64,000 nucleotides of DNA from Entophlyctis helioformis (taxonomy: Eukaryota; Chytridiomycota; Chytridiomycetes; Chytridiales; Chytriomycetaceae): contig JAHLKH010000090.1 of the NCBI GenBank assembly GCA_025526915.1, positions 1 to 64,000 of the forward strand, in the 5' to 3' direction. A program made the translations under genes and the position numbers. The notes under the pieces are model-generated. The model did no database searches. It saw only the letters and a list, made by a program, of their open reading frames with translations, and had not been told where the DNA came from. Below are positions 2,059 to 63,935 of this stretch, one piece after another (positions within the stretch are counted from its first letter, which is position 1; each line of letters begins with the position of its first letter).

Positions 2059-3178
2059 ATGCTCTCCGACGACAGTCCGGCTGCTGCCCGCAGCGTCGTG
2101 GCCAACAGCACGTCCTTCTGGTCGACGTCGATGGTCGCCGCGGGTGCCGGCTCAAGCACCACGTCCCGCAAGTCGCCGTCCCGCCGCTCCGGCGTCAATG
2201 CCACCACGGCCATGCAGGTGAGTCCGGCCCCAGGCGCCGATGCCGACACGCTCCCGGAGCCCTTCTACGCCTACGCGCCGGGCACGCCGGCCCGCCCGCC
2301 GCCCGCCGACGACCTGTCGCGGCTTCCGCTCGAGCTGCTGCTCCGCGCGCTCGGCCATCTCTCGCCGGCGGACCTGCTCACCATGTCGGGCGTGTCGGCG
2401 CTCTTCCACGAGCTCTCGCAGGACGAGTCGCTGTGGAAAGCGCACTGCGCCGCCGACTGGGCCGACAAGAAACACCGGCGTCTGCGTCTGTTCCCGTACT
2501 ACGCGTACACGAGCTCGGTCATCCTGTCGCGCATGTCGCGTGCCGACTGCGAGGCCGTCCTTGGCGAGCGTGGCGTGGACATGGCCGCGATGCCGGAAGC
2601 CCAGAGCCTGGAGGATGCCGCCGATGACGAGGCCAAGGCCGCCGTGCTGCGGCCTGTGGTTGTGCGCACGACGCCGTTTTTTGCCGTGCGCGCAACGTCG
2701 CTGAGCAAGTGGAAGGCATCGTACTATGCCGCGCGTATCGATTCGACGCGCACGGTCATGTCCGAGCACGAGCTCACGTCGTTTGAGTGGTGCGTCTATT
2801 TCGTCTGTCCGTCTGTCTGTGTGTCTGCCTGTGTGTTCTTCTGTCCGTCTGCCTGTGGCTGGCTCTGATCCCGCCATCGCCCTGTCTACGCCCAGGTACT
2901 ACTGCGACTCGTGGGGCCACTACGGCTACGGCCAGGAAGATGACGACGACGAGCCAAAGGAGCTCACGGCCGACGAGCTCAAAAAGTTCCCCGTGGTCAA
3001 GTTCTTCAAGAACGGTCTCCGCGGTCCGCTCGAGGGACACCGCCCGCGCACGTGCTCGTGGACGCTCAGCGACACGGGACACGTGCAGGTGTCGCAGTAC
3101 CCGCCGCACCGTGTGCGCCGCACGCCGACGTGGGGCTGGGAGATTGCCAACGGCTGGGTGACGTACAGATCCAAGTGA
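2059..3178 (+). CDS. F-box protein (uncharacterised)
   Basis: Probably a substrate receptor of an SCF ubiquitin ligase. Two exons, 2059..2789 and 2896..3178, give 337 residues; the junction restores a Trp codon (TG/G). The F-box lies at about residues 85-130: LSRLPLELLLRALGHLSPAD, then LFHELSQDESLWKAHC. The rest has no repeats I recognise and ends in TWGWEIANGWVTYRSK. The start is uncertain. The frame stays open upstream to 1666, and that extension would add an Ala-rich hydrophobic segment (about 1861-1950) and an Arg/Ser tract, making a membrane-anchored form. I chose 2059 because it leaves a normal gap after the NDK stop at 1532. The C-terminal half does not resemble WD40, LRR or Kelch receptors. 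Confidence 0.75.
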
Positions 3179-12700: not shown

Positions 12701-15411
12701 CACCTGTCCACTCCAAGCACCTCGACCCGACCTCGGACGCCTATGACCACGACGAAGGTGCCCCTGTTGTGCTGTCCGTGTCGTGGGGCGACGGCGATCG
12801 CAACACGCCCACGTTTGCCGTTGTCCTCAACGAAAAGGGCGACGTGGCAGAGAAGATCCAGCTGGACAAGATGTCGGACCGCGAGCGCGGCGACGATCCG
12901 TCCAAGCTGATTGACCTGATTGCTCGCCACCGGCCCGTCATGATCGCAGTCGGCGGGTTCTCGATTTCGACCAAGCAGTCGCTCATGGGGGTGCTGGAGG
13001 AGACGGTCTCGACCGGCCTCAACACCAAGCGTCTCAAGTCGAACGTGCCCGTCCGCCTGGTCGAAGACGAGGTTGCCCGCATTTTCATGAACTCGAAGCG
13101 TGGCGAGCGTGCCTTTCCCGAGTATCCGCCTCTTGTCCGCTACTGCATCTCGCTCGGCCGCAAGGTGCAAGACCCGACGCAAGAGTACGCCGGACTGTGC
13201 AACACGGACGACGACATCCGACACGTCCGTATGCACCCGCTCCAGCGGCGGCTGCCCGAAGACAAGCTCAAAAAGCTCATCGAGCGTGCCTTTATGAACG
13301 TGGTCAACTTTTGCGGCGTCGACGTCAATGCCGCGGCTGGATCGCCGCACCTGGCTAACACGCTGCAGTTTGTCAGCGGCCTGGGTCCTCGCAAGGCACA
13401 GGCCATCATCTCCAAGATCATCCGCTCGGGCGGCAAGCTCGAGTCGCGCGCCGACCTGGTGCGCAACAACCTGTGCGGTGCCAAGATCTTTGTCAACTGC
13501 GCCTCGTTCATCCGCATCCGTGCCTGGCACTTTAACAACCTGTACAAGGAGTCGCACATTGATGTTCTGGACGACACGCGCATCCACCCCGAAGACTACG
13601 ATCTGGCCCGCAAGATGGCTGCGGATGCTCTTGATCTGGATGATGCCGTGCTTGAGGACGAGGAGTCGCCGTCGCAGTATGTGCGTGATCTCATGGAGGG
13701 CGATGTCGACCGCCTCAACCAGCTCATGCTGGACGACTACGCCATTGAGCTCGAGCGTCGGTCGCACGAGCCCAAGCGGATCTGTCTCAACGAGATCAAG
13801 GACGAGCTCATGCAGCCGTACCACGACCGCCGCCGCCACTTTGAGCCGGCGAGCCCCGACGAAGTGTTTACGATGCTCACGGGCGAGTCGGACGAGACGC
13901 TCTACTCTGGCCTCATCACCACGGGCGAGATCCGGCGGGTCAAGGACCGGTTCCTGTTCTGCCGGCTGCCGTGCGGCATCGAGGGCATGATTCACGCCAA
14001 GAATCTCGAGTCCACGTACGACCAGGCGCCGCTCACGGACATGTACCAGGAAGGAGCCACGATCCCCGTGCGCGTGCTCTCGGTCGACAAGGAGCGGCTG
14101 TCTGTGGAATTGTCTGGCCGCGAGGCAGACGTTGACCCGGACAAGGCACCCGAGCCCATCCGCGACCTCTACTTTGACAAGGCGCAAGAGCACGACGACA
14201 TCTCGACCGCCAAGACCCTCAAGCGGCTTGTGCGCAAGCCCAAGCAGGCGCGCGTCATCTCGCACCCGTACTTTAAGAATCTGGACTACAAGGCGGCCGA
14301 GGCGTTTCTTGCGAATCGGCCGCGTGGCGAGTGTGTCGTGCGGCCATCGAACCGCGGCAACGACCATTTTGCCATCACGACCAAGCTCGACAACGGGCTG
14401 TTCCAGCACATTGACGTGGTCGAGTCGGACAAGGAGAACGAGTGGAGTCTGGGCAAGACGCTCACGGTGGAGGGCACGGTGTACATGGAGATTGACCAGA
14501 TCATTGCCGAGTATGTCGAGCCGGTCGTGCGGCGGCTCAAGGACATTATGGCGCACCCCAAGTTCCAGCGCAAGACGACGGCAGAGATGTACGCGTTTGT
14601 GCGCGACCAGGCCGTTGCGATCCGCCGGTCCGCGTACGGATTCATTCTGTCGCCCGGCCGCCCCGGCACGGCGCTCATGGTGTACTGCCATCCGACGAAC
14701 CAGTCGCGGCAAGAGGTGCTCACGGTGCGGCCGGCCGGGTTCCTGTTCCGCGGCCGCACTTTGGCGACATTGAGTCGCTTGTCGCGTACTTTAAGACGTC
14801 CGAGCGGAGCGGTCGGCTCGTCGCGGTCGGTGATGCGGCCAAACACTGGGTCGCGCTCAATGCATATGGGGATGGGCGGCGGCAGCAGCGGAGGTGGCGG
14901 TGGCAGCAGTGGTGCAAATGGCATGCATCCGGCACGCATGTCCATGATTGGCCAGTCGCAGCAGGGCATGCCCCGACAGCCCATGGTGCATCACGGCGGC
15001 GGTGCTGGCGGTGGTGGCGGTGGTGGTGGTGGGTACCCGCAGCAACCAATCAGCGTGCACGCGTCCCACATGCAGCCGCCGTCGCGGTACAGTGGCATGC
15101 CGTCTGGCCCGATGCCGCCCCAGCCGCCCATGGGTATGCCGATGGGCATGGGAATGGACATGGGCCGATCGTCGAGAGGACCGCCGATGCCGCCGATGCC
15201 GCCCATGCCACCGATGCCGCCACAGGGCCAGCCCCCCATGTATGGCGATCTCCGAGGCATGCCGTCGGGAATGTCGCAGGGAATGCCGCCGGGTATGCCG
15301 CCGGGTATGGGAATGCATCGTGGGTACCCGCCGCAGCAGCCGCCTCCGCAGGGCATGTATCCGCCCATGCCGCCGCAGCAGCCGCGTAGCCAGTACGGGC
15401 CGCGTGGATGA
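9745..15411 (+). CDS. SPT6: Transcription elongation factor SPT6
   Basis: Histone chaperone that travels with RNA polymerase II. Eight exons: 9745..9760, 9886..10064, 10165..10230, 10311..10542, 10678..11056, 11149..11299, 11362..11985 and 12046..15411; about 1,670 residues. Layout: a very acidic N-terminus with Asp/Glu runs and a Lys/Arg-rich KKRKKKKRKRK patch; the helix-turn-helix/Tex-like core (DLLEVPFIYAHRKDYL); a YqgF-like domain; helix-hairpin-helix (FVSGLGPRKAQAI); an S1 domain (GMIHAKNLES); then tandem SH2 (PRGECVVRPSNRGNDHFAIT). A Met/Gly/Pro-rich tail with GMPPGMPP repeats ends the protein. The second SH2 (HFGDIESLVAYFKTSERSG) lies one frame off between about 14757 and 14870 and the frame then returns, so at least two indels flank it. 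The last intron (60 nt) is in frame and stop-free. Confidence 0.95.
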
Positions 15412-15554: not shown

Positions 15555-16871
15555 TCAGTCGGACGAGTCGGACGGTTTGGACGGTTTGGACGCTCCAACG
15601 CGTACGAGATCCGAGACGACGGCGCCGCACCGCAGACACTCGTAGCCACTGTCAGCGCCATCTCCGTGCGCAGACAGTAGTAGCAGTACGTGTGGCCGCA
15701 CGGCACGGCCTCGACAGCCAGCTGCACGGTTGCCTGCGGCTTGCTTTTGCTGAAACATACTGCGCAGAGATGCGCTGGGAGCGACGCGAGCTCTGACGAC
15801 GACGACGACGACGAGGCTGATCCCAAGGACGATGCCGATCGTGTGTACGACGACACGACGCGTTTAAGGCGGCGCTTGAGTGCGGGGAGGTTGACAAACG
15901 GCATGATAAAGAGCAGGAATTCCTGTGTGTATGTGCACGTTGCCCGCGAGCCATGTCAGTCATCGCAGTGGACACGGTCAGCAAGCAAGCAGGCAACCAA
16001 GGACGTACAGTGAATGCCGTCCACACAATCTGCCGGTTCATAAACTCGAAGCTGACGGCGCGACGGACTGCCGGCTGGTCGTACACGGCGCGCATGCCCA
16101 GGCAACGGTCCAGCAGACTCATGTACCGGCCGTTGACCAGAAACAGCAGAAAGTTGGCCGCCCAGGCGAGTTTGTAGACCGTCTCGAGACGCGACGCGAG
16201 CCGCCAGAGACGGTGTTGAGTGGAGGCGATGTCCGAGTGCGACCAGTTGAGGGCCGTCATGAGGCGGCGCAGACGTGCCCATGCGTACGCGACGCCGATA
16301 CGAAGCGCCGCGTGTGCAAGCCGTATGGGTCTGCTGGCTGGCGCAGTTGAGATGGAGAGCTCGTCTGTCGATGTTCGTGCGTGTGAGTGCGTGGGCTGTA
16401 AGCAGATCATCTGGCGAGCGGCGGTCAGAGAGACGCACGGTTGGATGCCGAGTGCAGGGACTGGTCGCGGAACACGAGGTTGTGCAGCCGCATGCCGTAC
16501 GTCGATCCGCCGGCGACGATGTGCGACTCGGTGGCGAGCCAGTCGAGCAGCGCCGCCAGCTCGGGCTCGAAGCGCGACTTGAACCCAGGCTGTGTGTGAG
16601 CGTGAGCGTGGTGCACAGCGGCGGCAGTTCCACAGCAGCAGCAGCAGCAGCAGCCCAAGCAACGTACGTGGAACAGCGTGTCGACGATGGGCTCGAGCCG
16701 CTGGCTCAGCAGCGACCGCAGCTCGGTGTCCAGCAGCTCCGCGTCGAGCTGGCTGGAGCGCAGCACCGTGAGCGACCGCAGCACGGGCACGGCGGTTCTC
16801 GCCGTTGGCGTCGTTGGCGTCGCTGGTGTCGCACTTGTGGTTGTCAAAGTCGCCGTGGTCGTAGTTGCCAT
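15555..16871 (-). CDS. PEX2: Peroxin PEX2, RING ubiquitin ligase, apparent frameshift
   Basis: Membrane RING ligase of the PEX2-PEX10-PEX12 complex that ubiquitinates PEX5. Exons (minus) 16871..16668, 16589..16439, 16364..16009 and 15922..15555, about 359 residues. Typical PEX2 stretches: LEPIVDTLFHPGFKSRFEPE, YGMRLHNLVFRDQS, ETVYKLAWAANFLLFLVNGR, RAVSFEFMNRQIVWTAFTEF. The RING reads HLCAVCFSKSK, then PCGHTYCYYCLRTEM, and, one frame over, SGYECLRCGAVV. The first six zinc ligands and the final CxxC pair are thus split by a one-base slip near 15653-15656; no intron fits there. The N-terminus is Thr/Ala-rich. It diverges from importin-11 with 49 bp between the ATGs. Confidence 0.92.
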
Positions 16872-16920
16872 TGCGATCTTGAGGCGATCTTGAAGCCAGA
16901 CGGCAACCGCACGGACCAGC
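16872..16920. promoter_or_regulatory. 49-bp divergent promoter PEX2 / IPO11
   Basis: Only 49 bases separate the two start codons, so 5' UTRs must be very short, overlap, or start inside the neighbouring gene. It contains CGATCTTGAGG/CGATCTTGAAG as a direct repeat. Confidence 0.45.
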
Positions 16921-19900
16921 ATGAGCGACGGAACAGCGCAGTTGCGGGCCGTGCTCGAGCAGGCGGCGTCGCCCGTGCCCGAGGTGCGCAGGCCAGCAGA
17001 GGGCGTGCTCTCGCAGTGGGAAAAGAGCCCCGGCTTCCACTCGACGCTGCAGGTGCGTGCGTGCGTGCGTGTATGCTCGGGCTGCCTGCCCATCCCCGCC
17101 TTCGCCTGCCTTCGCCTGCTCACCGCGGCGTCGCCCTGCAGGACGTCTTCCACGACCGCAGCCTCGACACAAAGGTGCGCTCGCTGGCCATCATCTACCT
17201 CAAGAACGGCATCGACAAGTACTGGCGCAAGACCGCCCCAAAGTATGTCGGGCCCTGCCGCCGTCGTGCCGCTGCATGCCGTCGACAGCCACCGGTGCTC
17301 TGCTCTGGCTGGCGTACTGACCGACCGCCCGATCTGCACTGGCACCAACAGCTGCGTCCAGCCCGACGAAAAGCAGCGGATCCGTGCCCGCCAGCTGACC
17401 ATGCTGGACGAGCCTCAGAAGCAGGCACGCCGCTTGCCTGTGCGACTGCCCGACTGGCTGTCTGCTTGCTGGCTGCTTGTTTGCTGCTCGATCGCCGCGC
17501 GCTGACACCCGTTGAATGGCTGCAGCTCGCTGTGCACCAAGCTGTCGCGACCGCCAAGATGGCCCGCGTCGACTTTCCAACCGACTGGTGAGTGCATCAA
17601 CGCCGACGCTCTCCTTCAAGCCCCCTCGGACCACGCCCGATCGCTGCACACTGACACACTCGATGGACACACAGGCCGGACCTGCTGCACACTCTCATTC
17701 CGCTCGTGCAGACGGCCTTTGCTGCCGCGCCGCCACTCACCGACGCGATCCTCGCTACGCAGCACAACTCACTCTACACGCTGCATCTGGTGGTCAAGGC
17801 ACTCTGCACCAAGACGCTGCCGGCCAGTCGCCGCATTCTCTTGCAGCTCGCGCCAGACATCTTCCGCTTCGTCGCGTCGGTGTTCTATGACCGCGCCAAC
17901 CTGTTTGTGAGCAGTGCGCAGCAGGTGGACGCCGCGGACCCCCACCACGGACTTGACTCGACGCTTTCTCTCGCCCGTGTGGCTCTCAAGTGCCTGCGCC
18001 GGCTCATCATCCACGGATTCACCGACTTTACTGCTCATCCTGAAGCCGTCGTAAGTGGGGGCTCTTGTGCTCGCGACTCATCTGTGTGCACATCTTGCCT
18101 TTCTCACGCGTCTTGCATGCCGGACGTTGCACTGTAGGATCTGTTCCGCAACCTCGTTGGATACCTCCGCTCGTTTGTTCAGATCCGCCAGAGCCTGCCC
18201 AAGGCGTCCAACGGCGTATACGCCACGCTCTCATCCATATCCATCCTGATTGGCAAAGTGTACCTTGGCCTTGCCCAGGACCGTATCGCGAGCTTTGTGC
18301 TTGCCCCTGACGGCCTTGCTGTCGTGCGCTTCTACTGGTCGCTCCTTGAAACTGTTCCTCGCTCGGCGGGTATGGCATTGACTGCTGTTGCATGGTGTGG
18401 CGAGGTGTGGCCAGTGACGAGCTAACGACGCGCTTGGTTGGCAGACGACGAGACGATGGAGACTATCTTCATCCAGTCATTGCGTATCCTGAAACTGGTC
18501 ATCAAGAACCCTGCGTTCAACGTCGTTTCTGAGAGTGAGTGTGTCAAGATGGCATCCTTTATTCAATTCTCACGTGTGCTGTCCGGCTGACGTTGCTGCT
18601 CACATGCAGGCCACAAGGACGAGCGTATGCCTCAGGTGATCAGTTTGCTCGAGACGCAGCTGTTCCTGCCAGACAATGTCGTCAGTCTGGCGCGTCTGCT
18701 TGTCACCAAGTACATCAAGCTGTCGGACGAGGATCTGGCGTCGTGGGAGAACGATCCCGAGTCGTACATCCAAGAGGAAGAGGCCGACCACTGGGAGTAC
18801 AACCTCAGAGTGCGTGGGATGCACAGGTCGGAGTTGCTGCGTGGCGAGTGCTGATATGATGCAATGGTTGGCAGTCGTGCTCTGAGAAGGTGTTCATGGA
18901 GCTCGTGTCCAAGCACCGCCCGCTGTTGTGCCCGATGATCGTCAGCATGCTTCGCGAAGTCTCGGTGGAGACGACCCAGCAGAACATGCTGCTCAAGGAC
19001 GCCGTCTTTGCAGCCGTCGGCCTGACCGCCCACGACCTCTTTGACTGGATTGACTTTGCCGACTGGGCTCGCACCTCTCTTCTCCACGAAGCCCACAACA
19101 AGTCCCCCGATGTCCGCGTCATCCGCCGTCGCGTGTCGTGGGTCATTGGAAAGTGGGTCAGCGTCAAATCGCCCGTCGATCTCCGTCCCGCCCTCTTCGA
19201 GACCGTGCTCTCCCTCATGGCACGCGACGACGATCTAGCTGTCCGCCTCACTGCCGTCTCGGATCTCCAGGCCTGCGTCGACGACTTTGATTTTGTTGGT
19301 GCGCAGTTCCAGCCGTACCTGCAGACGAGCGTGACGCTGTTCATGCACCTCCTTGAGGACGTGGACGAGTTTGAGTCGCAGATGAAGATCCTCAACTGCC
19401 TCATTGTCATTATCGAGCGCATGGAGGGCCAGGTGTGTGTGGATCCTCTCATCCATCCGTCCGTCCATTCGCGTTGTTACCATGCTGCTCCTTGTACAAG
19501 CAGAGTGGCTGACGCACGCGTGGTTGATGCGTGCGCAATCGACAGATCCTGCCGTTCATGGCGCCGATTCTGCATGTGCTGCCGGAGCTGTGGAAGCGGT
19601 CCGAGGGCCAGAACATATTCCGCGCGCTCATTGTCACGATCATGGCCAAGCTGATGAAGGCCCTGCGCGCCGACTCGGTCCAGTTGCAGAGCATGGTCGT
19701 TCCCATTCTACAGCAGAGCATCGATCCCAAGCAGGTATGTGCCTTGCTGAACCATCTTTCCCCACTCGCTCACCTGCCAATCCCCTTGTCCAGTCTCGCA
19801 GCTGACACACGCACACGTGGTGACAGCCGGGGTACATCTATCTCTTGGAAGAGGGTCTTGAGCTCTGGCTTGTGACGCTGCAAAACGCAACGTCAAGTAC

Positions 19901-28700: not shown

Positions 28701-31700
28701 CTTGGCGTAGATTTCGGGGTTGTAGTTGGGGTTGGGCAGCTTGGTCGTAATGAACAGATAAAAGTTGTCGCTCCAGTCGATTTCCTTGTCGCCAAACACG
28801 ACCTTGAAGCTGCGGCCAGCCTTGATCAAGTTGCGCTCGAGGATGTTGTCCATGGTCGGATCCAGCGTCTCTTCCACGTCCTCAATCAGAAGCGGACGGC
28901 CCTGGCTCACACAGTCTTCGATGTGCTGGCGGAAGTACTTGTGCGTAAGCGTCGTCACCTGCAGCTTGTTTTGCTCCTCGCGGTTCTTGATCCAGACACG
29001 TGCCTGGTTCTGCGGGTCGATAAGGAGCGGGAATCGCGTGCCCTTGGTGACAATGATACCGTTCTGGATCGACAGCTCGTCCGTGGGCAGGCCCTGGATG
29101 TTCCACTCTCCCACGGTCGTGTTGTCCACGAGCAGACCAATGATGTCGAGATCGTCCGTGTGCGGGATCTTGCGTCGGGCAAGCTCCTTGCGCCAGTCCT
29201 GCAGCATCTGCGACCGGAAGGTCTGGTTAAACGGCCCGCTGTACGACAAGAAGGCAGTCGCGAGAATAATGTCGCCGACGAGCCTGCCAATGCGCTCGGC
29301 AAACTCTTTGCTCTGGATGGTCCAGCGATCCTTTTCGCCCTTGAGACCGCTGATGAGCGCTGTGGCGGCATTCATCTTGCGCTTGCAGCTGTCGGCGTCG
29401 GCCTGCAGCGCCTGCTTGTCGGTGATGGCTTCGTTGTACTTGGCTTGGAAGATGTCGAGCTCGGCCTGCTTCTCGTCGAGCGTCTGCTGTGCCTTGTTCA
29501 GATCGTCCATGGCCAGCTGGAGCTTGTGCTCCTGCACAATCAGGTTGGCCTTGAGCGGGATGACCTTTTTGTTGACACCGTAGTAGGTCGCCTATGATGC
29601 AATGACATGGAAGAACCGTCAGTCCAATGAGACGCGGCATGGACTGCCATGGACAGAAACTGAACAAGACGCGCAGACAATCAACTCACCATGGCGCCGA
29701 CCCACGAGGCAAGACCAGCAACATCACCCGACACCTTCTTTGCACCCTCGAGGTTGAAGTCGGGCATCTCCATCATCGGCTCGAGGAACTCGACCGTCTC
29801 TTCGTTGATCTCGTCCTTGGCAAAGTTGAGCAGCGAGGTCAAAAAGTCGGACGCGGACATGAGCTTGAGAGATTCGGACCAAGACGGCTTCATGCAAGGT
29901 CGGTCCGGATCCTGCGTGACCGGATCAATGCGGCGTTTCATGAGGAGCAGCACGCCGTCCATGATACGCATGATCAGATGCGGGGGCTTGGCCAGCTTAC
30001 GCACAGTCGAGATGTGCGACGGCTGGATCGAGTTGAGCGCTTGCCGGGCCTCCTCAAGAGCAGGCTTCGCAGCCTCGAGCTGGCTTTCGGCGTACTCCTT
30101 GTCGGCCTTGATGGCGTTTGCGATGCCCTCGGATTTGGTCTTGACCTTGAGCACCGAGTCCTTGACCTTTTCGGCGGACGCGGTACTGGCCGTCACTTCT
30201 GCCAGCACAGCATCGGCAGACTTGGAAGCCACCGCCAGATCCTTCTCCTTGACCACAAGCTGCTCTTGCAGCACAGCCACCGACTTGGAGGCCTCAATCA
30301 GCTTGGACAGACCCATGTTCATGCGATCGGACGAGCCGCCGACCTCCTTGCGCTTGCTCTCGTAGTACGATTGTACGAGCCCAGGAACGACAGGTACGAC
30401 TTGGGCGTGACGTGCGTGCGGCGACGGAACTGCATAAAGTAGTTGTTGCAAGCGTCCGTCACGAGATCGTGCACAAACGCCATGTGGTACACAATCTCCT
30501 TCTTCACCTGGTCCGTGCCCGCAATCTCCATCTCGGAGACGTACTTGTCGGCGACAGCGCGCAGAGCCTCGTTGGGCCAGCGGCTGAACCAGTCCATGGT
30601 GCATCCAGACACGAGGCCAGGGAACTTGAGCGAGCGGTTGCGGAACTTGTCGCCGACGGGCGAAAAGCAGAGCACGACGTGCAGGTTGGCCTTGACACGG
30701 TCGATAAAGAACTGCCACAGGTTTTCGATCGTGTCCACGACGTTTGGACGCTGCTTCTTGAGCGGCACCCGCAGATCCGACGAGATGCTGATCACTTCGT
30801 CCTTGGGGAACAGGTTCGTGATTTCACCCGACGTCAGGATGTTGTTGATGAACCCAAGGAAGCCTTCCTCCTTGACCTCGTTGTCCGTGAAGATAAATGT
30901 CATGGACTTGCCCTGAGCACCGGCGACCTTGTACATGAGCTTCAGGTCTTCCATGAGGTTGGACACGTTGTAGCTCTTGGTGATGGCAATCTGGAACACC
31001 TGGCTCTTTGCAATGAACGCCGCCAGCTTGGTGAGCGACTGCTTGCCGGAACCACCCACACCGACAAGGAGGGCATTGCCGCGCGGCGTTCGAATGATGC
31101 GCGAGATGCGCACAATGTGGCGCATGGCATCCTCGAAGAGCACGAGATTCATCTTGGAGCCACGGATGTTTTCGTTGTACTGCTTCATGTACTCGGTCAG
31201 ACGCTCGCGGAGGACTTCAAACGACGGCACTTTTTCGTAGACCTTGATGGACTCGAGATCAATCTCGACCTCGGGGTCGTCATTCTCGGGCGGCTCACGC
31301 AGGAAATCGACAAACAGACTCTTGTTTGCAATTGCCGCCGAATAGTCGTCGCCGAGCTCCTTTTGCACGATGTTAAGCTGCGTCTTGGTGAACCAGTCTG
31401 CATCTTCCTGCGTGATGAAGCGGTCGGGAATAACGCGAGAACATTCGTGCTCCCACAGACACATCAGCGACTTGTCGTTGGGGATCGCTTCGGGCGACGA
31501 GTTGAGCATGCCTTCGATGATGCGCGACATGTCACGCAAGTTGAAGATGTAGTGGAACTTGGCAGGCGTGGGAAGCATCTTGATCTTGGTCATCTGCCAG
31601 AGGCGACGCGTGATGGGCGGCAGACGCTGGGCCAGAGCAACGACGTCGGGTGCAAACTGACGAGCAGAGCAGAAGTGGCCCTCGAGCATGGTGCCAAAGA

Positions 31701-34700
31701 TCTTGTCCACAGACGTGTCAGAGGGAATGGTGCAGTTGAACACGACAAAGGCACGCTTGAGACGCGACGGAATGTCGTTACGGCCACCGCCTGGATGCAT
31801 CATGGCGCCGAGGAAGAACAGGTCCACAATGGCTGTCCAGTCGCCGGGACGATCGAGCGAGTAGAATCCTTGGTACTCCATCAGCTGGCGCACAATCTCG
31901 CCCGTGACCTGGTCGCCCCACTCGTTGATCTCGGGCATGTTAATGTCGTCAATGAAGATGGTCATCTTCTTGCCGGCAGGCGGGCCGTATGTCGAGCCCA
32001 TGCGCTTGTCAAGGTACGACTCGATCGTGCGCTGGAAGATCATGGGTGTTGTCGCAGACGAGAAACTGAGGTTCTTGGACAGGTGGGTGTCGGCATTGAG
32101 CTTGGCCAGGTACTTTTTGATCGTGACCGTCTTGGCCGTGCCAGGCTCGCCAATAAGCAGCACAGCGCGTCCCTGCTTGGTAACCGTCTCGATCATGGAC
32201 TCGGTGCGCACATTGTCCACCATGGGAATGATAATGGACGAGAACTCTGGCGTTACGTCCGACGGGTAGATCCAGTCAACGACACGCTCTTTCCAGTGCT
32301 GCCACTGGCCATTGTCGTTGACAAAGTACTCGTAGAACGTGTCCTGGCTGCTGGGGTCGAGCGGCGGGTAGCGGAGATCGGGCACCTTTTCGAGCATGTA
32401 CTGCTGCAGCTTTTTGCGCTCGTCCAGCTCAAGCAGAGCACCAAATGCCCAGAAGACGGCAAAGATGTACAGACGCTCGAGGTGCTCGCTCGACACCTGT
32501 GCCTTGTTGGCCTCGGCCTTTGGAATGAGGCCGTTGAGCAGGATGGTCGCGTTGATGAGGTAGTTGACCTGCGAGATGATCATCTTGGGATGCAACTCGA
32601 GCGTGAAGAAGAGCGTCAGAGCGCCAAAGCTGTTCATGAACAGCGGCTCCAACACCGCAGCCTCGTTGGCCGGACGTGTCTTGAACCACGACTGCAGCAC
32701 AACATCCCACGTCAGGGCGGTGATGCCAATGTAGATCATACCACAGCGCGACACCGTGGCGGGCGATGCGTTGCGGAGCGAGTGCACTTCAAACGTGAGC
32801 TTGCAGGCTGGCGACATGGGGATACGATCGCCGTTGGCAAGCGTCAGACACTTGTTGTCGTCCAGCACAGAGTTGAGGTTCTCAATCCAGACGGCATCGA
32901 CGGGGCCGTCGAGAATGATCCACACGGTTTCGCCCTTGCGCTTGAGCGTCTTGCGCCAAAGCGACGAGAAGATGCCGTCTGTCCAGTCGTTGGTGGCGAC
33001 ATCCAGCCGACCAAACATCTGGTAATCCGTGATGGCCTTGGGGTTCATGCGCAGCTCCTTGTGCGGATCGCCGCAGACAGTCATGGCTTTGAGCAGCGCG
33101 TTGATGCACTTGGTCTTGCCGGTGCCGGTCGGGCCGAGGATCATGATACCGTGACGCACCTTGGCGGTCTCGTAGAGCTGGATGACCTTGAGCGTCCACG
33201 GCGGGTGGCTGATGAGATTGACTTCGCTGAGCTGCTGGTCGACAGCCGCCTCGACGTTGGGGTAGCTGCCCTTCTTGGCCGTCAGACCAGGGAACAGATC
33301 ATTGACAAGCGACAGGAAGAGCGCCTCGTCCTCGTCGACGAGCTTGGACAGATTCATGTCACGCAAGACACGCATGATGATCATGTTTTCAGAGTCCTCG
33401 GGGTTGGCACGCTTGACCGAACCGCAGGTACGCAGCACGGACAGGATATTGCGCAGACCGAAATCGTAGTGCACCTGCTTGGACAGCTGCTCCTCGCAGA
33501 GCCGGTAGAGCACAAAGAACTTTTTCGCAAGGATGATGTTGTTGATGAAACCACATCCGGCGAGCTTGACACGAATGATGATCTGACGATCGGGCACCAT
33601 CATGGCCACGTAGCGGAAATGAACCTTGAGGTTCTCGGGCAGCTCGACACGGCCGGCGTAACCCGGGTTCATGGTGATGAACATGCCGACCTCGGGGTTG
33701 AGCTCGACCGTGTCGCCGTCGGTGAAAATGAACGTCGTCTTGCGCTCTTTGCGGGCTGCAAACACGCATCCAATCTGCTGCGCGGCCACGGAAAGCACGG
33801 GAAGCTCGATACGGTTGAACTCGTCGAAACAGCCCCAGCAGCCACTCTGTGCCAGGCCCTTGTAGATACGGCCAAGACCTCTGTAGTCCATCTGGTCCGA
33901 GCAGTTGAAGACCACGACCCACTTGGCCAGGTTCTTGCCGAGATCCTTGACGGACTCGGTCTTGCCAGTGCCTGTAAAAGCCCGGCCGCACCGCAAGAGA
34001 CAAGGTGTGTCAGCAGTGATATCAAATGTCTGCAACCAAACGCAAAAAGGCGCCGAGAAAAACATACCGGCAGGGCCAGCGGGCGAGCCGCCAAGAGACA
34101 TGCCCAGCGCCTGAGCCAGAGTAATGTAGCAGCGATCCGTGAGGGGTGTGATCACCAGCCGGTCGCAGCATCCGAGATACTCGCACTGGTACTTGAAGTC
34201 AAAGTTGGTAATGGACACCATGCAGCAGTCCTTGGTCTCGTGCCAATAGAAGCGGGCCTGCTTGAGCCACTCAAAGTCCTCGGGACTCTTGACATGCTGC
34301 TTGTACAGCTTCTCAAACACGTCGCGGTGGTGGACCTGGAGCGTGATGAGCGTCTCGTACTTGGTGCGGTCCATCTTGGACAGATCCTTGGTCGTGACGT
34401 CAATGAGCACGTTGAGGATCTCAATGATGCGCTGGTTGGTCGCGCCCATCTTCTTCTTGTCCGTCTTGGAGAGCGTGAGACCCTCCTCGCACATCTGGGT
34501 CCACTGGATCTGCAGACAGAGGAGTCCGATCTGGGCCGGGTACTCGTCCATGAACTTTTGCGTGGGGAGGTCGTTGACGCGCGAGGCGGCTTCGCGGATA
34601 ATGTCGTTGATGGACGACTGGATCGACTTGAGCAGCGTGCCCAGCCACATCTCGACGTTTCCTGCCGCAAGCATGGGCCGGCTGAGCGGCACGCGCTCGC

Positions 34701-37700
34701 CTTCGGACGACTCGAGCCCGATGATCTTGTCGTACTCCTTCTCATGGAACTGCACCTTGTCAACGTTGTCAAAAACACTCTTGAGATGTGCCTGGATCGT
34801 GTGCGAGTCGCTGGCCTGGCCGAGAATCTCGAGAAGCGCAGGGTCAGAGACAAAGTAGAAGCGCGGGAAGATGGCACGCTTTGACTCGAGGTAGCCCGAC
34901 AGCGACTTTTGGCAAAGCTCGAGCTGCTCCGTCAGATGCGGCAGCAAGTTGGCAATGGTCTCGTCAAGCACGCAGCACTGGATGACGTTGGGGTGCTCGT
35001 TGGCCAGACCCATGATCTTGCACCACGACTTGTCAATGTTGCTGAAGCGCTTGGCTTCCTTGGGCATCTGCTTGGCGATATCACCGCCCACAAACACAGC
35101 CTCGAGGTAGATCCACAGGTTCTGCACAGCAAGCCAGTTCTCAATAACCTCGGACGCCGTGCTCAGGTTGTGCACCCACGTCTGGATAGTCGGCTTGAAT
35201 GGCGCGTTGTAGCGGTTACTCATGAGCGAAGCAAGCGTCATGAGCGAGTCCTCCATCTGCGAGATGATCTCTGACGTCGCGGACGGCTTGAGGATAAGGT
35301 TGCCGCGCGTCTTGAAGCCGGCAAGCGTAAACGACTTGTCTTCCCAGTCGGCGACCGTCGCCTTAAGCTTGACTTCGATATCCGCTTCCTTGACGGCGGC
35401 CGTGCAAATATCCTCAATGTCCTCTGTGTGATCGTTGAGCGGCGCATCGAGCAGGTTCTTGAGGTAGAACATGTCGGGATCGAGGTTGAACTGCGTCTTG
35501 GTGACGCTCATGATCGAGTCCCAGTGGCGCTGCTGCATGGACTTGTTGCACATCATGTCGAGCAGCGGCACCATGGCGGCGAGGTTGTCGACAATGTTCT
35601 TGAGCTCGGTGAAGGCGTCCCAGTCCTTGATGGCCTTGGGCAGCTTCTTGATCTTGTTCTGGAAGTCGGTCATTTCCGTGTTGATCTTTTCGAGGTCAAT
35701 GTCTGTCCACAGCGTCTCCGAGTACGTCTGGCGCTTCTCGAGCACGTCGTTGTAGAGACTGTACAGGTTTTGCAGCAGCTTGAGCTCCTTCTTGATGCGC
35801 ACGAGCGTGGGGAACGGCGTCACGGGCAGGCAGAAGAGCTCCTCGCCGGCAGAGTACGTCTCCCACTTGCGGTTAAGCTCGTCGAAGCCGCGCTGGAACA
35901 CATTCAGGCGCTCGCTGGCGGTCTTGGGCGGGATGTTGCCGGCCATGGGCCCGTTCTCGGTGTACTCGACCGTAAACTCCTTGACGTCCTGCGAGAACTT
36001 TTGCACAGCGCCAATGAGATCGGCCTTGAACACGGGCTGGATCTTGCTGAGATGCGCCTGGGTGTCAATGACAAGCATCTTGAGCTTCTTCCAGCTGTAC
36101 CGGAGCGAGTCGACCATTTCCGTTTCCTCGCGCGTGACCGAGACGCTGTGCTTGGTAAGCAGGAGATACGCCTCTTCGATCGGCGCGACCTTCATGTCAA
36201 TGTCGACTTCTGCCTCGCGGATCTCGCTCAGCGTCTGGACGGCGATGCGCAGGTCGTCAATGTCAGCAATCTTGCGACTGAGCTTGATCGTCTTGTTCTC
36301 CATGTACTCGATGAGCTCCTCCATGTCCTTCTTGACCTTGCGGTTGAGGTTGAGGCCGTACTGCTGCTTCCACTCCTTGGTCTCGGACAGGAGCGCCATC
36401 TTGAGCGGCTCGGCCGAGATGAGGAGCAGGCCAATCTGCGTCGACACGGGGATCTCAAGGATCTCGCGCTCAATGAACTCGTAGCGGTTGATCTCGTTCT
36501 CAAAGTCGGCAATCGTGGGGTTGCTGTCCAGGAACTTTTGGATCGTCTCGGCCTTGTCCTCTTTCCAGAGGAAATCGTACTTGGCAAACTGCTCACGGTG
36601 GTACTCGACGTCCTTCTTCATCGAGTTGACCGTCGAGCTGAGCATCATAATGACCTTGAGCACGTCCTTGTTGTTGGCGACCTGTGACGTGTCTTCGGGG
36701 TAGTGGCCCGTCGCGTGGTCGTCGGGGGCGTCCAGGAACACGCGCCAGTTGAGGTTGAGCTTCTTGGCGACATCAACGACCATGTTGCCCGCCTTGTTGA
36801 GCGCACCCTGGATGTCCTCGAGTTTGGGCTGAAGCACAACATTGGGGATCACCAGCACCAGCTCGGCGCGGAAGAAGGGCTTCTGGGTCGGAGCCTTGTT
36901 GTACTGGTTGCTCGTGTATGTGCCCAGCCGCGCTCTGAGGGTGTCGAGCGAGCTCTTGGTGCACTGAACAAGCGCCTCAAAGTTTTGGTAGTTTGCGTTG
37001 TAGTAGACGCTCTCGTAGGCGAGCCGCAGATCCGGCGTCACGTACTGCATCACGTTCTTGGAGAGCTCAGAGATGATGTCGCGCGTGGCGCTTTCGATGA
37101 GATTGCTGCGGTTGCTGATGGACTGGATCATGGACGAGCAGCGCTTTTCAGTCTTGTCGAGGAACACGTCGACGGTCCACTGCTCGAAATCGGCAGGCAC
37201 TTCCACAAGCGAGATTTCGGCAATGCGCCGCACGCCCATCTCGATGCGGCACTCGGAGATGTCGAGCAGCTTGTCCACAAGCTCCTCGAGTCGGGCGAGC
37301 TGCTTGTGGTTGGCTTGAAGGTATTCGTCGAGGTTGAGCGATGTCCTGATGGCAGGCAAGGGGGTTTGGTGAGGTGGTTGCAAAGCATCAGTCAGTCGCC
37401 GTCACAGTCGCCGTCACAGTCGCAGTCACAGTCGCAGTCACAGGCCAGCAGGCTGCGAGTGGCAAGACATACCATGTCAGAGCAGTCAAGCCAGGCTGCA
37501 GTGTACGGTCCAGCTCGTCAATGTGCGGAGCCATTGCGCGACGCAAGATGGTCGTCACGCGGTCAAGAACGCGCTTCTTTGTGTGCAGGATGTGGATCAG
37601 GCCATTGTACAGGTTCTTGTAATACATTTCCTTGGTGCAGACGTTTCGCACAGAGTCGGGCACCTCGAGCGTCAGCCGCAGCATGTGCTTGGTCTCTTTG

Positions 37701-56776: not shown

Positions 56777-57983
56777 CTTTGCCGCCGAGCTTCTTGATGA
56801 GCTTCTTTGCACGCTTGTAGGTTGGATCGGCAGCGGCAGCAACGTCTGGATCCAAATCCAGATCGCCCTTGGAAGCAGCAGTCTTGTCCGCCTCGGCGCC
56901 ATCGTCTCCTATTGCCTTGGCCGCCGTCTTGATCTTCTTGATCTGCTCAATGATCTGCTGGGCCTCGGCAATCGTCTCGGACTTGGCCTTGTCGCTCATG
57001 TTGGCCAGGTACTTGAGCGTGTCCGTGAACTGCGCGTCGCTCATCTAGCCACCGTTCCCATCCATCGCAACGCGCCGAGTCAGTCCAGCACACGAACCAA
57101 CAAACACAAGCGCCAAGAGACTCACCAGCGACGGGTAGTACATGTTGCGCAGGATCCAGATCTGCCTGACTTTTTGAAACTTCCACATCTTGCGGTTGTT
57201 GGTGAACATGTCCAGATACTCGAGTGCGGCCTGCTTGCCCTTGGACGCCTCGGACTCGTCCGATGCCGCGCCACCAGCAGCAGGCTTGGCGGCGGTCTTG
57301 CCCTTGGCCTTTTTGGCCTTTTTCTTCGTCTTCTTCTGGGCTGCTGTGTCGGCTGCTGCATCGGCATCGTCTGCGCCACCGTCCAGCGCGGCGGTGTTGG
57401 TATCGGGAGTCTCGTCGGCATCCACGTCGCGAGTCGTGGCAGCAGCAGCAGCAGCAGCGATCGCTTCGAGCGACGTGTCGGGGCTGGCATCGGCAGCGGA
57501 CGGCTCGGGGGTAGCAGGCGCATGCTTGGCCTTGAGGATCGTGGCCTCGCTCTTGAGTCTGTCCACACGTCGCCGCTGCTTCTGCAACGCCTTGCGCTCC
57601 GCCTCGCTCAGCTTGGGCACTTGGGGCACAATCTTCTCCTTCTTGGCCGTGGCTCTGTTGGGAGCGCCGTCGCCGTCGCCGTCGCCGCCACCGGCACCGG
57701 CAGCAGCACCGGCCCGATCGTCTCGCTTGTTCCTGTACATGTCCTTCTTGGCAGCCGCCTTTGCAGCAGCAGCAGCAGCTGGTGCTTCGATGGCGGCCTC
57801 TTGCTGCACCAAGTGCCATGCGGGCACTTCACGGCCGGTACTGAACACCTTGGCCTCGGGCAGCTGCTCCTCCTCGACCTCGCCGTCGTCGCCGAAACGA
57901 ATGCGCTTGGCTCTGCCGTCGACGGGCGCTCTGGCACCCAGCGATGCAGGCACGACCACCTCAGCCGGCCGCTTCGTGGACAT
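56772..57983 (-). CDS. WKF-domain nucleolar-type protein (C7orf50-like)
   Basis: Two exons (minus), 57983..57126 and 57044..56772, 376 residues. The C-terminal WKF domain is clear: ALEYLDMFTNNRKMWKFQKV, then RQIWILRNMYYPSL, then a helical segment DTLKYLANMSDKAKSETIAE. Proteins with this domain (human C7orf50 and fungal relatives) are linked to the nucleolus and ribosome biogenesis, from general knowledge. The N-terminal 250 residues are low-complexity Ala/Asp/Lys with a KKTKKKAKKAKGK basic cluster, consistent with nuclear targeting. The ATG at 57983 is the only ATG near the start. It is divergent from the gene at 58029 with 45 bp between. Confidence 0.85.
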
Positions 57984-58028: not shown

Positions 58029-59754
58029 ATGCTGACGCTGCTCGACCTGCCTCGAGAGCTACTGGCGGCCATCCTCGGGTGAGCTGCGGGTGCTGCAGGT
58101 GCAGATGCGTGCGTGCACACGCTGACATGGCGGCAATGGGCAGGCGGCTGCATGGCAGAGACGTCGTGGCCGCCGGCAAGACGTGCACGGCGCTGGCGGC
58201 GCTTGCGGCCAGCCCGCTGCTGTGGAGGCAGCTGTGCGCGGCGCACCACGGCCTGCTGTTCACCAGCCCGGCGCTGTCGTGGAAGCAGCTGTACTTTGAC
58301 AAGAGCGCCGCCAGCGTGTGCCGCCACCTCAACGCCGTCACCGACGCCGTCGCAGACGCCGCCGCCCGCAGCCTGGCGCCGGTGCTGCAGCCGGGCGTCC
58401 ATCTCGCCGTTCAAGCGATGCTCCACACGCAGATCCAGCAACACGGCCACAACAGCAGCGACGACGGCAACAGCAGCGACGACGGCAACCGGATGGACCA
58501 GGCCAGGCCGTTCCTGGCCAGCAGCGTCAAGTGCAGCGTCGCCACCTGCCACTCCCGCTATCCCGTACGTCCGTGTGCTCGCCCGTCCGTCCGTCTGCCA
58601 TGCGGCGTGTGGAGGCGCATTCAGCCACTGCATACCAGCTGATGCGGCGGCGGAACTGACACCGCCTTCTGCGTCACCTGCACCCCACGCCGTGTGCACC
58701 AAACAACACACAGGACCTGTGGCTCTGTCTGTCGCCCGGCTGCGGCCACATTGCCTGCGGCCGGTCCAAGAACAAGCATGCGCTCGCACACGCCGAGGCC
58801 GAGGGACACAACCTGTGCATTCGCCTCAACACGCTCGAGATCTGGTGCTACAAGTGCGAAAAGGTTCGTTCCTGTGTCGCTCGCTGCTCTGCAATGCCCG
58901 GCATCGTGCGTCCCAGCCCGTCCTGACGCAGTGTGTGCGACAGTGGGCAGGAATGGTGCAGTACCACGCGGCAGAGTCTGCCAAGGTCGTGCACATTGGC
59001 GACAGGATCCGCAGCATATGCGGCGCGCAATGGTTTGCGACTCCCGCCATGAATGCGAGGCGGCAGACGGAGCGGTGGCAGCACGAGCCGGACCCGGCCT
59101 CGTCGTTGTACCTCGTGTCGACACTGTGGCTGGACGAGTGGAACAAGTTCCTTGTGGGCGATGCGCCGCTGCCTGGACCCATTGACAACAGCCCCCTAGT
59201 CGCGCACGAGACAGGAACACTCAACCCGCATCTGGTGTACGTCTGCCGCATGTCTTTTAGAGCCCCTCCATATGCTCACACTATTGCATGTGCTGCACAG
59301 GTTTGGGAACGAGTTCCGGCTCATGCCCGAGGATGACTGGGGACGCCTGCACGCATCATACGGCGGCGGCCCCGTGTTTGGCGAGGAGCATCTGGATGGC
59401 CCCGCGTATGCCACACTCGCAGACACGGTCAGCTGGTTCAAGCGATGGCGTGCGTCGCGCATCCGTGCTCAGCAGGCATCAGCAGCCGCGGCTTCCTGTG
59501 CCGCCACGAATGGCACGCAAGCAGCCGGTGGCGTGGCGTCCGCGGCAAATGGCAGCGCTGCTGGATCAGCGTCCAACACCGGATATGTACAAACAGAAGC
59601 ACCCGACACGGACTATGAGGAAGATGACGGCGACGAGGACTTTGTGGATCAAGTGTATGACAGCGACAGCGACGATGCTCCTGGCATCTTTGGATTCAAT
59701 CAAAACGACTCGGATGATGACGATGATGACGATGATGGCATGGCAGCTGAATAG
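58029..59754 (+). CDS. F-box + ZnF-UBP + DUSP protein (USP-like without protease domain)
   Basis: Exons 58029..58078, 58144..58564, 58714..58863, 58944..59236 and 59301..59754 join in phase to 455 residues. An F-box begins at residue 5: LLDLPRELLAAILGRLHGRD, then LAALAASPLLWRQLCAAHH. A UBP-type zinc finger follows at about 140-205: CSVATCHSRYPDLWLCLSPG, CGHIACGRSKNKHALAHAEA, EGHNL and LEIWCYKCEK. A DUSP domain follows at about 240-320: SLYLVSTLWLDEWNKFLVGD, PLPGPIDNSPLVA and RLHASYGGGPVFG. The end is Ala/Ser-rich and then very acidic (Asp runs). ZnF-UBP plus DUSP is the accessory set of deubiquitinases such as USP20/USP33, but no Cys- or His-box of a UCH protease is present between or after them. 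The likely role is a substrate receptor that recognises ubiquitin C-termini or ubiquitinated partners; this is inference. Confidence 0.88.
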
Positions 59755-59854: not shown

Positions 59855-62800
59855 TCAGGCCGAGTGCTGCATGTCTGTAAACGCTTGAAGGGATCCGCCG
59901 CCTGACCGGCGTGGCGGGTTGCGGCGCGGACGAGACGGCGAGTCGCCCGACGCAGCGTCATCCGTCTTGGCCTGCGATGCGGCAGGCGCAGCACGCTTGC
60001 GTTTGGTGTCGGCCTTGCCCCAGCCGCCGCCGCCAGGCGTCTCGATACGCAGCCTGTCGCCCGGCTTGACCACCGTGGCGTTCTTGCCGCCAAAGTTGAG
60101 CACACGGTACAGGCGACCGTCCTCACTGGCCGTTGTGGTGGCTGTGGTCGTCGAAGGCGTTGCTGTGCTTGCCACACTGTCGTTTGCCACAAGCCGCATC
60201 AGGATGTTGGATCCGCTCTTGCCGTCCTCGCCGCCGTCAAGACTAGTTCAGCGTGTGTGAGCGAATACGAAAGCGGATGTGGGCCTGTAAGACGAAGCAG
60301 CAGGCTTACCCATATGGCGCAAACACGCGTCGTTCAGACAGCATGGACACGTGGAGTGTCTCGAGGAACTCGACCTGCCACAGCAACGCTCAGTCGACCC
60401 GTCTGGCTAAGTACAGGCAGGCAGATACACGGATATGCACAGGGCTCGTTACCTCGCGGACCACGCCATCGCCGCCGTTAAACTGTCCGTGGCCGCCCGA
60501 TCCGGCCCGCAGACCAAACCGTCTCAGAATGACTGGGTAGCGGCGTTCCATGATCTCCGGATCCGTGATGCGTGTATTGGTCATGTGCGTGTGCACGCCG
60601 CCTATGCATCCCGCCATCGCATGGCGTCAGTCCCGGCACTCCATCGCCAGCACCAGCAGACTCTCAAAAAGCAATACGGACTTCGACCGTGCCAGGTTGG
60701 TCCAGCACCCGAACCGCCGGCAATCGTTTCGTAGTATCCAAAGCCCTCGGCCACCGACCCGTCCTCGCGCCGGCCGCCCATGCCAAACGTAAAGTTGTTG
60801 CAGCATCCCTGGGACGCGGCGCACGCATGGAATGCCTTGAGCACCACGTCGCACAGCCGCTGCGAGGTAAGCACATTGCCGCCGACGACAGCCGCCGTCT
60901 CGGAGGGGTTCAGGAACGAGCCGACGGGGATGCGCACATCGATGGGGGCGAGAGCGCCTTGGTTGAGCGGCATGTCGAGGTTGATGAGCGCACGGAGGCA
61001 GTAGATGATGGCCGAGTAGGTGACGGCGCGCGGCGCGTTGGTGTTGGCGTAGACCTCTGGCCCCGTGCCACTGAAATCAAAGATGGCCGAGCCGGTTTGC
61101 GTGGAGATGGTGACCGCGAGGTTGATGGTGCTGCCGTCGTCCATGCGATCGGATGCGTGGAGCACCGTGCCGCGTTCCTTGGCGACGGTCTTTAGAAGGT
61201 TGCGGACGGCTAACTCGGCGTTCTGTTTGTGCCGTGCCGTTAGCCTGTGATGCTGCAGACAAATGCGTCTTGTCCAAGGCACTTGCCTCGCGGATAAAGT
61301 TCATGTATGCCTGTACCATCTCAAGGCCTATAACCGCAGGCATGTGAGGATGTAGATTGGCTGGGCACTGCCACGGCACGTCCGGTCAAGGGCTTACCAT
61401 ACTCGTCAATCAGGCTCTTGACCAGAACAATGCCCTTGTGGTTGGCAGCAACTTGGGCTACAGACAGACAATCAGTATCAGCCATCGACGCTCTTGGCAT
61501 CCATCAAAAGAGTCTCCCAACCAACCTTTGAGATCAGAGATGTTGTCGCGGAGGCATCGAGTGCCGCTGCATCCGTCAAACTTTGCCGGGTCCTCGAGCA
61601 GGATCTTGGTAATGCCCGCCTCGTCGAAATGCCCGTTTCGGACAAGGAAATGGCTCTTGATGCCGCACCTTCCTGGTACAGCTCGCGCGAGTTGGGCGGC
61701 ATGGATCCGGGTTGGATGCCGCTGTCACATGCCACAGCCGTCAGTCTCGCGATTGGATGTGGCGGGAAGAGTCAGACTCACCCAATGTCGGCGTGATGTC
61801 CACGACTGGCAACGAAGAAGACGACGTTGCCGTGATCAAACACGGGTGTAATGACCGTGATCTGCGGCAGCAGAGTGTCAGCATCGCGCACACGCAGAGC
61901 AGCGCTGATCCAACTCACATCAGGCAGGTGCGATCCGCCCGCAGCAGGATGGTTGGTGACAATCACATCGCCGTCCTTGAGCTTGCCTTGGAGGTGGCTC
62001 ATTTGCCAGCGCACAGCCTCCTGCATCGATCCCAGATGTACGGGGATGTGCGGAGCGTTGGCAACAAGACCACCATCAGGGCCAAACAGCGCGCATGAAA
62101 AGTCCAGACGCTCCTTGATGTTGGTTGAAATGGACGTCTTTTGGAGCGTGCGGCCCATTTGTTCTGTGGATAGGTGCAGAAAGCAGATGCGCCGTCAGAG
62201 AAGGCCAACATCGACAGGATCACGCTTGGGGCATACCTGCAATGCTCATGAACCGATGGCCAAAGACACTAAGCAGGATAGGATCGGCCGTCTTGGGCAC
62301 AACAACCGTCTTGGCTTTCTCAGCTGCGCCATCCTTGCTCTCGTCCATGGCAGCAACAGCATCCGACGACGGGACACGGCCAACAAACCCAACAACGTGC
62401 TCAGAGGTCACAACGGCCGTGCAATGCGGCTCGACGGCAATCGTGGCCGTCGCATCAATGATCAGCGCAGGACCGATGATCTCATCGCCAACCTTGAGAG
62501 CTGTCAACTCAAACACGGGTGTCTCAACACGGCCAACACCCTCCCAGAACGCGTGCTCGGTCGTGGAGGCTTCACCCACGCTCACGGCCCGGCGTGTCAG
62601 ACGCTTGATCTCCTCGTGCACCTTGGTATGGCTGGCATCGGATCCCATCGCCGCGCTTTTGCCGATGCCGCGTACACGGATGTCGTCAACGTGAGTGGCA
62701 CGGTCGGGCAGAGTGAACCCAAACTCTTGCTGGTACTGGGCAACAAAGGCGGATGCAAAGTCCCAGTTGTCTGCAGAGTCGCTGGGCTTGAGCGTCATCA

Positions 62801-63935
62801 TGGCATTGTCGGTGCCCTGGTAGCGCAGGTTGAGGTACACTTGGTTCTCGATCTGCGAGTGCTTGAAGCCCTGCTTTGAGAGCACCTGTGTCGCTTGGGA
62901 CGACAAGGCTGCCACACGCTCCTTGATGCGGTCCAGCTGTCCTGCCACGAGCTCAAACGCGCTGTGATGTTCGTGTGAGTTGGTGGCCAGACAAGGCACG
63001 CAGCGGCCAACCCACGTTACCTTGGCTCTTGGACTTCGTGCACGACATCTGCAAGTGCGATTCCATAGGCAGACAGGATGGACGAGTGGCGGTGGATGAG
63101 CACAGTCTTGATGCCCAACGATCGTGCAATGGCAAACGCATGCTGTCCGCCCTGTGAATCCCATGCACGGCAACTTGTTCAGCACGACGCCCTGATCGAC
63201 AACCATTCGGCAAGCATGCTCAAGAAAACTCACAGCGCCGCCAAAACTGGCAAGAATGTGGTCAGCGGCATTGTATCCCTTGCCTTCCGTCAGGGCTCTG
63301 ATCGGACGACACATGCTCTCGTTGGCAACCTTGATGAAGCCGTACGCAATCTCATCGCGTGTCATGGGCACAAACGCGGGTGCATCCGACGGCTCAGTCT
63401 TGGCCGCCTTGCCCTTTTTGGCGGCAGGTGATTTGCTGTTGCTGCTGCTGTTGCTGGCGCCGGTCTCCTTGGCATGCTTGTCCTTGAGGAACGCATTGAT
63501 GGACTTGGCGAGGGCATCAAACGCCTTTTGGGTCGCGACTGCATCCAGCGGCTCCTTCTCCGACTTTCCAAAGATCTTGGGGAAAAACGATGGGATGAGG
63601 CGGTCGAGGAGCAGGTTGGCGTCTGTGATGGTGAGTGGGCCAGACTTGCGGTAGCAGGCAGGGCCTGGATCAGCGCCAGCGCTCTCGGGACTGTCCATGC
63701 GGTTTGCAGTCTGGTCAGACAGGACAGCATCAAGTTGCGAGGCATGCGTGTCTGCAGCTGATCGTGGCAACCCACCCCACAACAAACATGCCGTTGCGGA
63801 AAAAGAGACGCGAGCCGCCGCCTGCAGCCACCGTGTTGATGTCCAGCTGTGGGGCTTGGATGGTCACGCCCGCCGTCGTGGTTTCATAGACGTGCTCGTA
63901 GCGGCCAGCATAGCGTGAAACATCTGTGCTGGTGC
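59855..63935 (-). CDS. OXP1: 5-oxoprolinase (ATP-hydrolysing), C-terminal part, apparent frameshift
   Basis: Converts 5-oxoproline to glutamate in the gamma-glutamyl cycle. Twelve visible exons (minus): 63935..63776, 63690..63234, 63151..63021, 62961..62237, 62163..61782, 61721..61526, 61457..61398, 61327..61287, 61222..60682, 60601..60453, 60374..60310 and 60242..59855. They encode about 1,100 residues of a protein usually near 1,280; the N-terminal part lies beyond 64000. Seen: [100 protein letters not shown] and [21 protein letters not shown] Ser/Asn/Lys insert (near 63400-63470) is lineage-specific. One base seems missing near 61662 (YQEGA then [16 protein letters not shown]). The intron 61223..61286 has a GC donor (GAG/GCAAGT). 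Confidence 0.93.

Follow-up and report, generated by a model that had tools for sequence, protein, structure and literature searches.

The window analysed here, a stretch of 64,000 nucleotides from the chytrid Entophlyctis helioformis, carries a gene for a 455-residue protein in which an F-box is followed by a UBP-type zinc finger (zf-UBP) and a DUSP domain, with no protease domain of the UCH family. Ligases and deubiquitinases are opposing enzymes, studies of their reader domains have mostly kept to one of the two sides, and zf-UBP and DUSP are reader parts normally carried by the ubiquitin-removing enzymes. Here a conserved protein joins the docking domain of a ligase to the readers of deubiquitinases, and its zinc-finger pocket carries residues that, by sequence, suit free C-termini.

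We tentatively propose, with slightly less than even confidence, that the gene product serves an SCF (Skp1-Cullin1-F-box) ligase as substrate receptor and takes hold of a free Gly-Gly tail via the zf-UBP, with the DUSP domain as second contact. From the domains and the pocket residues we infer that Skp1 would be bound by the F-box at the N-terminus, and that Arg174, Trp201 and Tyr203 of the zf-UBP would clasp a client by its free C-terminal Gly-Gly. Candidate clients are ubiquitin that is free or unanchored, ubiquitin-like proteins and proteins with a Gly-Gly C-degron at their end. The second contact, made by the DUSP domain, would be sequence-specific, and ubiquitylation of the client by the ligase would follow. 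A ligase receptor built from deubiquitinase parts had been suggested in the original prediction, and the domains as well as the relatives that share the fusion lend support to this idea.

Gene model and domain composition

Five exons were predicted between positions 58029 and 59754 of the forward strand. They splice in phase into the 455-residue open frame. All four introns are bounded by GT and AG and measure 65, 149, 80 and 64 bases, respectively. The exons, the domains and the predicted pocket residues are located as follows:

58029..58078 (+): exon 1, start codon and first part of the F-box (MLTLLDLPRELLAAIL), in-phase GT-AG join
58144..58564 (+): exon 2, remainder of the F-box, linker with an Asp/Ser-rich repeat, first zinc-finger cysteines
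58714..58863 (+): exon 3, bulk of the zf-UBP zinc finger, assigned by Pfam zf-UBP (E 6e-17) and alignments to solved zf-UBP domains
58762-58764, 58843-58845 and 58849-58851 (+): predicted pocket residues Arg174, Trp201 and Tyr203 in exon 3
58944..59236 (+): exon 4, linker and first DUSP half with a PGPIDN motif
59301..59754 (+): exon 5, DUSP end and acidic low-complexity tail, stop codon included
58041..58237 (+): F-box domain, residues 5-48, split by intron 1
58532..58863 (+): zf-UBP domain, residues 147-207, split by intron 2 (PF02148, E 6e-17)
59106..59376 (+): DUSP domain, residues 262-330, split by intron 4 (PF06337, E 2.5e-14)

When the whole protein was compared with Pfam, the F-box-like family matched with E 3.1e-11 (43.3 bits, cut-off 24.3) and the F-box family with E 5.9e-5 (23.2 bits, cut-off 20.5). 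The zf-UBP match was above its cut-off as well, and DUSP reached 53.9 bits (cut-off 29.3). The sole further family listed up to E 10 was Shadoo (0.0046, below cut-off) in the low-complexity tail. The arrangement of F-box, zf-UBP and DUSP in one five-exon protein with correct splice phase, as originally predicted, is thereby confirmed. The predicted lack of a protease domain was found too: Pfam gave no UCH match up to E 10 in the 455-residue protein, and the Cys-box and His-box patterns of UCH were absent from it and from its relatives P0001 and P0003 to P0006. Both patterns were present in the deubiquitinase P0002, which served as positive control. By this membership test, i.e. the absence of the UCH catalytic domain, the protein is not a deubiquitinase.

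The weakest point of the gene model is the 50-base exon 1, an in-frame ATG at 58127 being an alternative start that could give a shorter protein with only a partial F-box. The joins were scored with an F-box profile built solely from the relatives P0004, P0005 and P0006 described below. Exon 1 joined to exon 2 scored 40.2 bits compared with 26.2 bits for the start at 58127. In total, 1,368 decoy 5' fragments taken from the window were likewise joined to exon 2 and reached 26.1 bits on average (SD 0.8, maximum 36.3). The exon 1 join ranked first among the 1,369 joins tested, which is a rank and not a p-value because exon 1 had been proposed beforehand for its F-box look. Additionally, the N-terminus of P0004 from Rhizophlyctis rosea is closely similar and its start lies one residue apart, while P0005 and P0006 start further upstream. 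Exon 1 is thus supported by the best join score and by the R. rosea N-terminus, and a false exon 1 or chance fusion was rejected given its place at the top of these joins (40.2 bits against 36.3 for the best decoy).

Relatives and related domains in the same genome

A database search with the whole protein gave none at E <= 0.001 among 7,995 scored candidates, which we take to be low-complexity look-alikes. With residues 140-335 as query, P0001 and P0002 were obtained among 299 candidates. A two-row alignment then retrieved five proteins at E <= 10 (P0001 and P0003 to P0006), a distribution that is a lower bound since scoring was confined to the 7,997 candidates with the most shared words and to a limited range of lengths. 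The high score of P0001 in this search arises by construction, P0001 being part of the query, and the query also held the F-box of the window protein. For this reason the domains of the relatives were verified by separate Pfam scans.

The five relatives, two of them truncated models, are without a protease domain and share 31-38% identity with the window protein. Four come from chytrid fungi, and these four named species belong to the Chytridiomycetes, orders Chytridiales and Rhizophlyctidales. In P0004 (R. rosea, 324 residues) F-box, zf-UBP and DUSP were all present in the same order, and all three were also found in P0005 (Chytriomyces sp. MP71, 402 residues). P0006, a metagenome protein of 414 residues, carried zf-UBP and an F-box-like match of 24.3 bits, equal to the cut-off of 24.3; its model stops shortly past the stretch aligned to the beginning of DUSP. 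DUSP and a partial zf-UBP were seen in P0001 (Dinochytrium kinnereticum) and in P0003 (Chytridium lagenaria), whose gene models start only within the zinc finger and thus leave the F-box out of view. P0002, on the other hand, is a deubiquitinase with zf-UBP, UCH and DUSP in that order, the protease domain being present.

P0004 belongs to the same family, and its database name is 'Ubiquitin carboxyl-terminal hydrolase 20'. The name implies a protease, but Pfam listed no UCH up to E 10. The database thus contains at least one entry with a protease name and no protease domain.

Taken from these sequences, the three-domain fusion is supported as a conserved family in chytrids. It probably predates the split of Chytridiales and Rhizophlyctidales, since P0004 and P0005, both complete, fall in different orders. 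A six-row family profile compared with solved chains matched the zf-UBP of USP33 (9e-17), the DUSP of USP15 (1.5e-5) and the F-box chains of FBXO31 (9.2e-5) and FBXW7 (0.0016). The domains are known singly, and their combination seems to be uncharacterised by a search of the open-licence literature: a fusion of F-box and ZnF-UBP was not described in the titles and abstract openings covered. This is in agreement with the original prediction, which knew of no characterised protein of such architecture.

The genome of E. helioformis was searched in six frames, a search that goes exon by exon, can miss split domains and scored best candidates only. It gave 33 UCH matches, none of which was located on the 98.9-kb contig of the window (C90). 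A hidden UCH exon, which the original prediction had named as the finding to look for against it, was rejected accordingly within the reach of this search. DUSP was matched once, in the gene described here. Given this single occurrence in the exon-by-exon search, we rejected the idea that the domain was recently copied from a deubiquitinase with DUSP in the same genome. Nine zf-UBP matches were found. Those on contigs C39, C130, C160, C19 and C131 adjoin UCH matches, so the organism appears to have ordinary zf-UBP deubiquitinases too. Furthermore, Skp1 family matches were present on two contigs, cullin family matches on six, and at least 69 F-box-like matches were counted.

Several domain matches occurred twice with equal scores on different contigs (C19/C131, C130/C462 and C14/C384), which suggests uncollapsed haplotypes or duplicated assembly segments. 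For exon 4 of the F-box/zf-UBP/DUSP gene a single copy was found.

The zinc-finger pocket and candidate roles

Among solved zf-UBP domains, USP33 and USP20 are the closest by sequence. ZnF-UBP domains as readers of free ubiquitin C-termini are reviewed in PMC7659471. Ligands of the ubiquitin-tail pocket of HDAC6 contact R1155, W1182 and Y1184 (PMC10424181). The pocket residues of HDAC6 and USP16 were matched to the alignment columns by spacing: Arg to Trp is 27 and Trp to Tyr two residues, alike in HDAC6 and the window protein, and R84 to Y117 of USP16 is 33, i.e. 29 plus four residues inserted in the alignment. The position of the pocket Arg is occupied by Arg in HDAC6 and USP16 and by Glu in the aligned USP20 and USP33. 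Within the family, the Arg (motif CGR) was found in five of six rows (P0003 starts downstream), Trp and Tyr in all six. In the window protein Arg174 replaces Glu55 of USP20 and Lys178 replaces Asp59, the USP20 numbers being counted from the printed chain position in the alignment. The place of Asp59 varies, with Lys in the window protein and P0004, Glu in P0005, Gln in P0001 and Tyr in P0006.

Judged by these residues, the Arg174/Trp201/Tyr203 pocket belongs to the free-tail type, set in a USP20/33-like scaffold. Compared with HDAC6 and USP16 the chytrid zinc finger has a two-residue insertion of the USP20/33 type in the loop before CGR, so that the shape of the pocket may differ. Two compounds of the HDAC6 pocket, 25 and 32, had measured binding to USP3, USP5, USP16 and HDAC6; none was measured to USP13, USP20, USP33, USP39, USP49 and USP51, and BRAP bound only compound 32, weakly (PMC10424181). 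According to the alignment USP49 has kept the Arg but carries Phe instead of Trp; as it bound neither ligand, Arg alone would be insufficient.

The zinc finger should thus grip a free C-terminal Gly-Gly, as found in unanchored ubiquitin, ubiquitin-like proteins or Gly-Gly C-degrons. The zf-UBP pockets of HDAC6, USP5 and USP16 accommodate a C-terminus that is free. Conjugated ubiquitin, with its C-terminus engaged, would not be readable by a pocket of this type. Of the ubiquitin reading suggested in the original prediction, the part on unanchored ubiquitin and free tails is therefore favoured by the pocket residues, and the part on ubiquitin conjugated to substrates is not.

An AlphaFold2 model of P0004 from five sequences had a mean pLDDT of 55 and is too weak for judging the pocket in three dimensions; ten-residue means in the DUSP region ranged from 34 to 59. 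Foldseek and VIA-align matches of this model support the F-box and zinc-finger parts only, and DUSP structures appeared at E 0.38 or more among the best 50 of 103 Foldseek matches.

A somewhat unlikely alternative is an SCF receptor that recognises internal short linear motifs with its zf-UBP and DUSP, in the manner of USP20 and USP33, i.e. a two-point degron reader in which ubiquitin tails have no role. In USP20/USP33 both domains bind motifs, the zf-UBP reading [KR]xxL[NED] and DUSP2 reading [FW]x[IL] (PMC13376213). These two proteins are also the nearest solved zinc fingers, and the close position of zf-UBP and DUSP with no protease domain between them would suit two-point binding. However, Glu55 and Asp59, which belong to the motif-binding site of the USP20 zf-UBP, are replaced by Arg174 and Lys178, and the double mutant E55K/D59R cost USP20 its peptide affinity (PMC13376213). 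The Asp59 place is not constant in the family, P0005 being acidic there. A single charge-determining residue would make the difference between a likely reader of tails and one of internal motifs.

It is improbable that the protein is an F-box scaffold that couples the SCF ligase to ubiquitin itself, by keeping free ubiquitin or chains near the ligase, by handling products or by recruiting partners, while substrate recognition takes place elsewhere, if at all. Yeast Ufo1, an F-box protein with ubiquitin-interacting motifs (UIMs) which function in turnover and handover (PMC3398040), is a precedent, and Pfam reported no substrate-binding repeats of the WD40, LRR or Kelch type in the window protein. 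Such a scaffold would, however, leave the conserved DUSP, a peptide-binding module in USP20/33 (PMC13376213), without a clear task. Very improbable is a decaying or mis-assembled USP20/33-like deubiquitinase that lost its protease exons and was joined to an F-box by chance: the zf-UBP-DUSP order does equal USP20/33 minus the catalytic domain (compare zf-UBP, UCH and DUSP in P0002), but two of the five relatives at 31-38% identity have the three-domain fusion and a third has F-box and zf-UBP, the contig is free of UCH matches and exon 1 is the top of 1,369 joins.

A receptor for free Gly-Gly tails, the reading we prefer, resembles several known systems in part. The zf-UBP to DUSP order is shared with USP20/USP33 (VDU2/VDU1), from which the window protein differs by the lack of UCH, the leading F-box, a single DUSP where those have two, and Arg for Glu at the zf-UBP site. 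With the zf-UBP of HDAC6 and USP16, readers of free ubiquitin C-termini, it shares the pocket Arg, Trp and Tyr, whereas it has no deacetylase or protease domain, carries an F-box and has two extra residues before CGR. Cullin-ligase receptors of the Kelch type bind C-termini that end in Gly, and for KLHDC3 and KLHDC10 these include that of ubiquitin itself (PMC11568203). The likeness to KLHDC2/3/10 is one of predicted function only, a cullin-ligase receptor gripping a free C-terminal Gly: these use a Kelch propeller and CUL2 (KLHDC1: CUL5), and in the window protein a zinc finger and an F-box would take these roles. Among fungal F-box proteins, yeast SCF-Das1 is a receptor for C-degrons (PMC10724198); zf-UBP and DUSP are absent from the available descriptions of Das1 and Ufo1.

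More tentatively than the receptor role itself, we consider it possible that the family is a new class of cullin-ligase receptors in which a deubiquitinase-type zinc finger catches free Gly-Gly C-termini. Free ubiquitin chains, ubiquitin-like proteins or fragments ending in Gly-Gly would then be SCF clients in chytrids and possibly beyond (P0006). If true, this would be a second structural solution for the reading of Gly-Gly C-degrons beside the Kelch receptors.

Other genes of the window

Scans of the window for tRNAs and Rfam families gave no match. A second F-box protein frame is located at 1483-2865 (+) with an F-box-like match of E 2e-9. An Spt6-type elongation factor in a single long open frame (11347-15408, +) and a Pex2/Pex12-type peroxisome protein (15655-17190, -) were also found, as was a 5-oxoprolinase-like gene with Hydantoinase_B and Hydantoinase_A domains (60602-63863, -).

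The region 30322-37401 (-) encodes an axonemal dynein heavy chain (DHC_N2, AAA_6, DYH2-5-8_CC), which is evidence for a flagellated life stage. In the genome, matches to IFT46 and to chitin synthase were present, the latter family matching also in 4 of 14 control genomes. Together with the chytrid relatives, these genes are consistent with a zoosporic fungus.

The divergent neighbour of the F-box gene is a frame at 57048-57983 (-) with a WKF domain (PF10180, E 1.3e-9). A distance of 45 bases separates its likely start codon from that of the F-box gene, and both may share a promoter.
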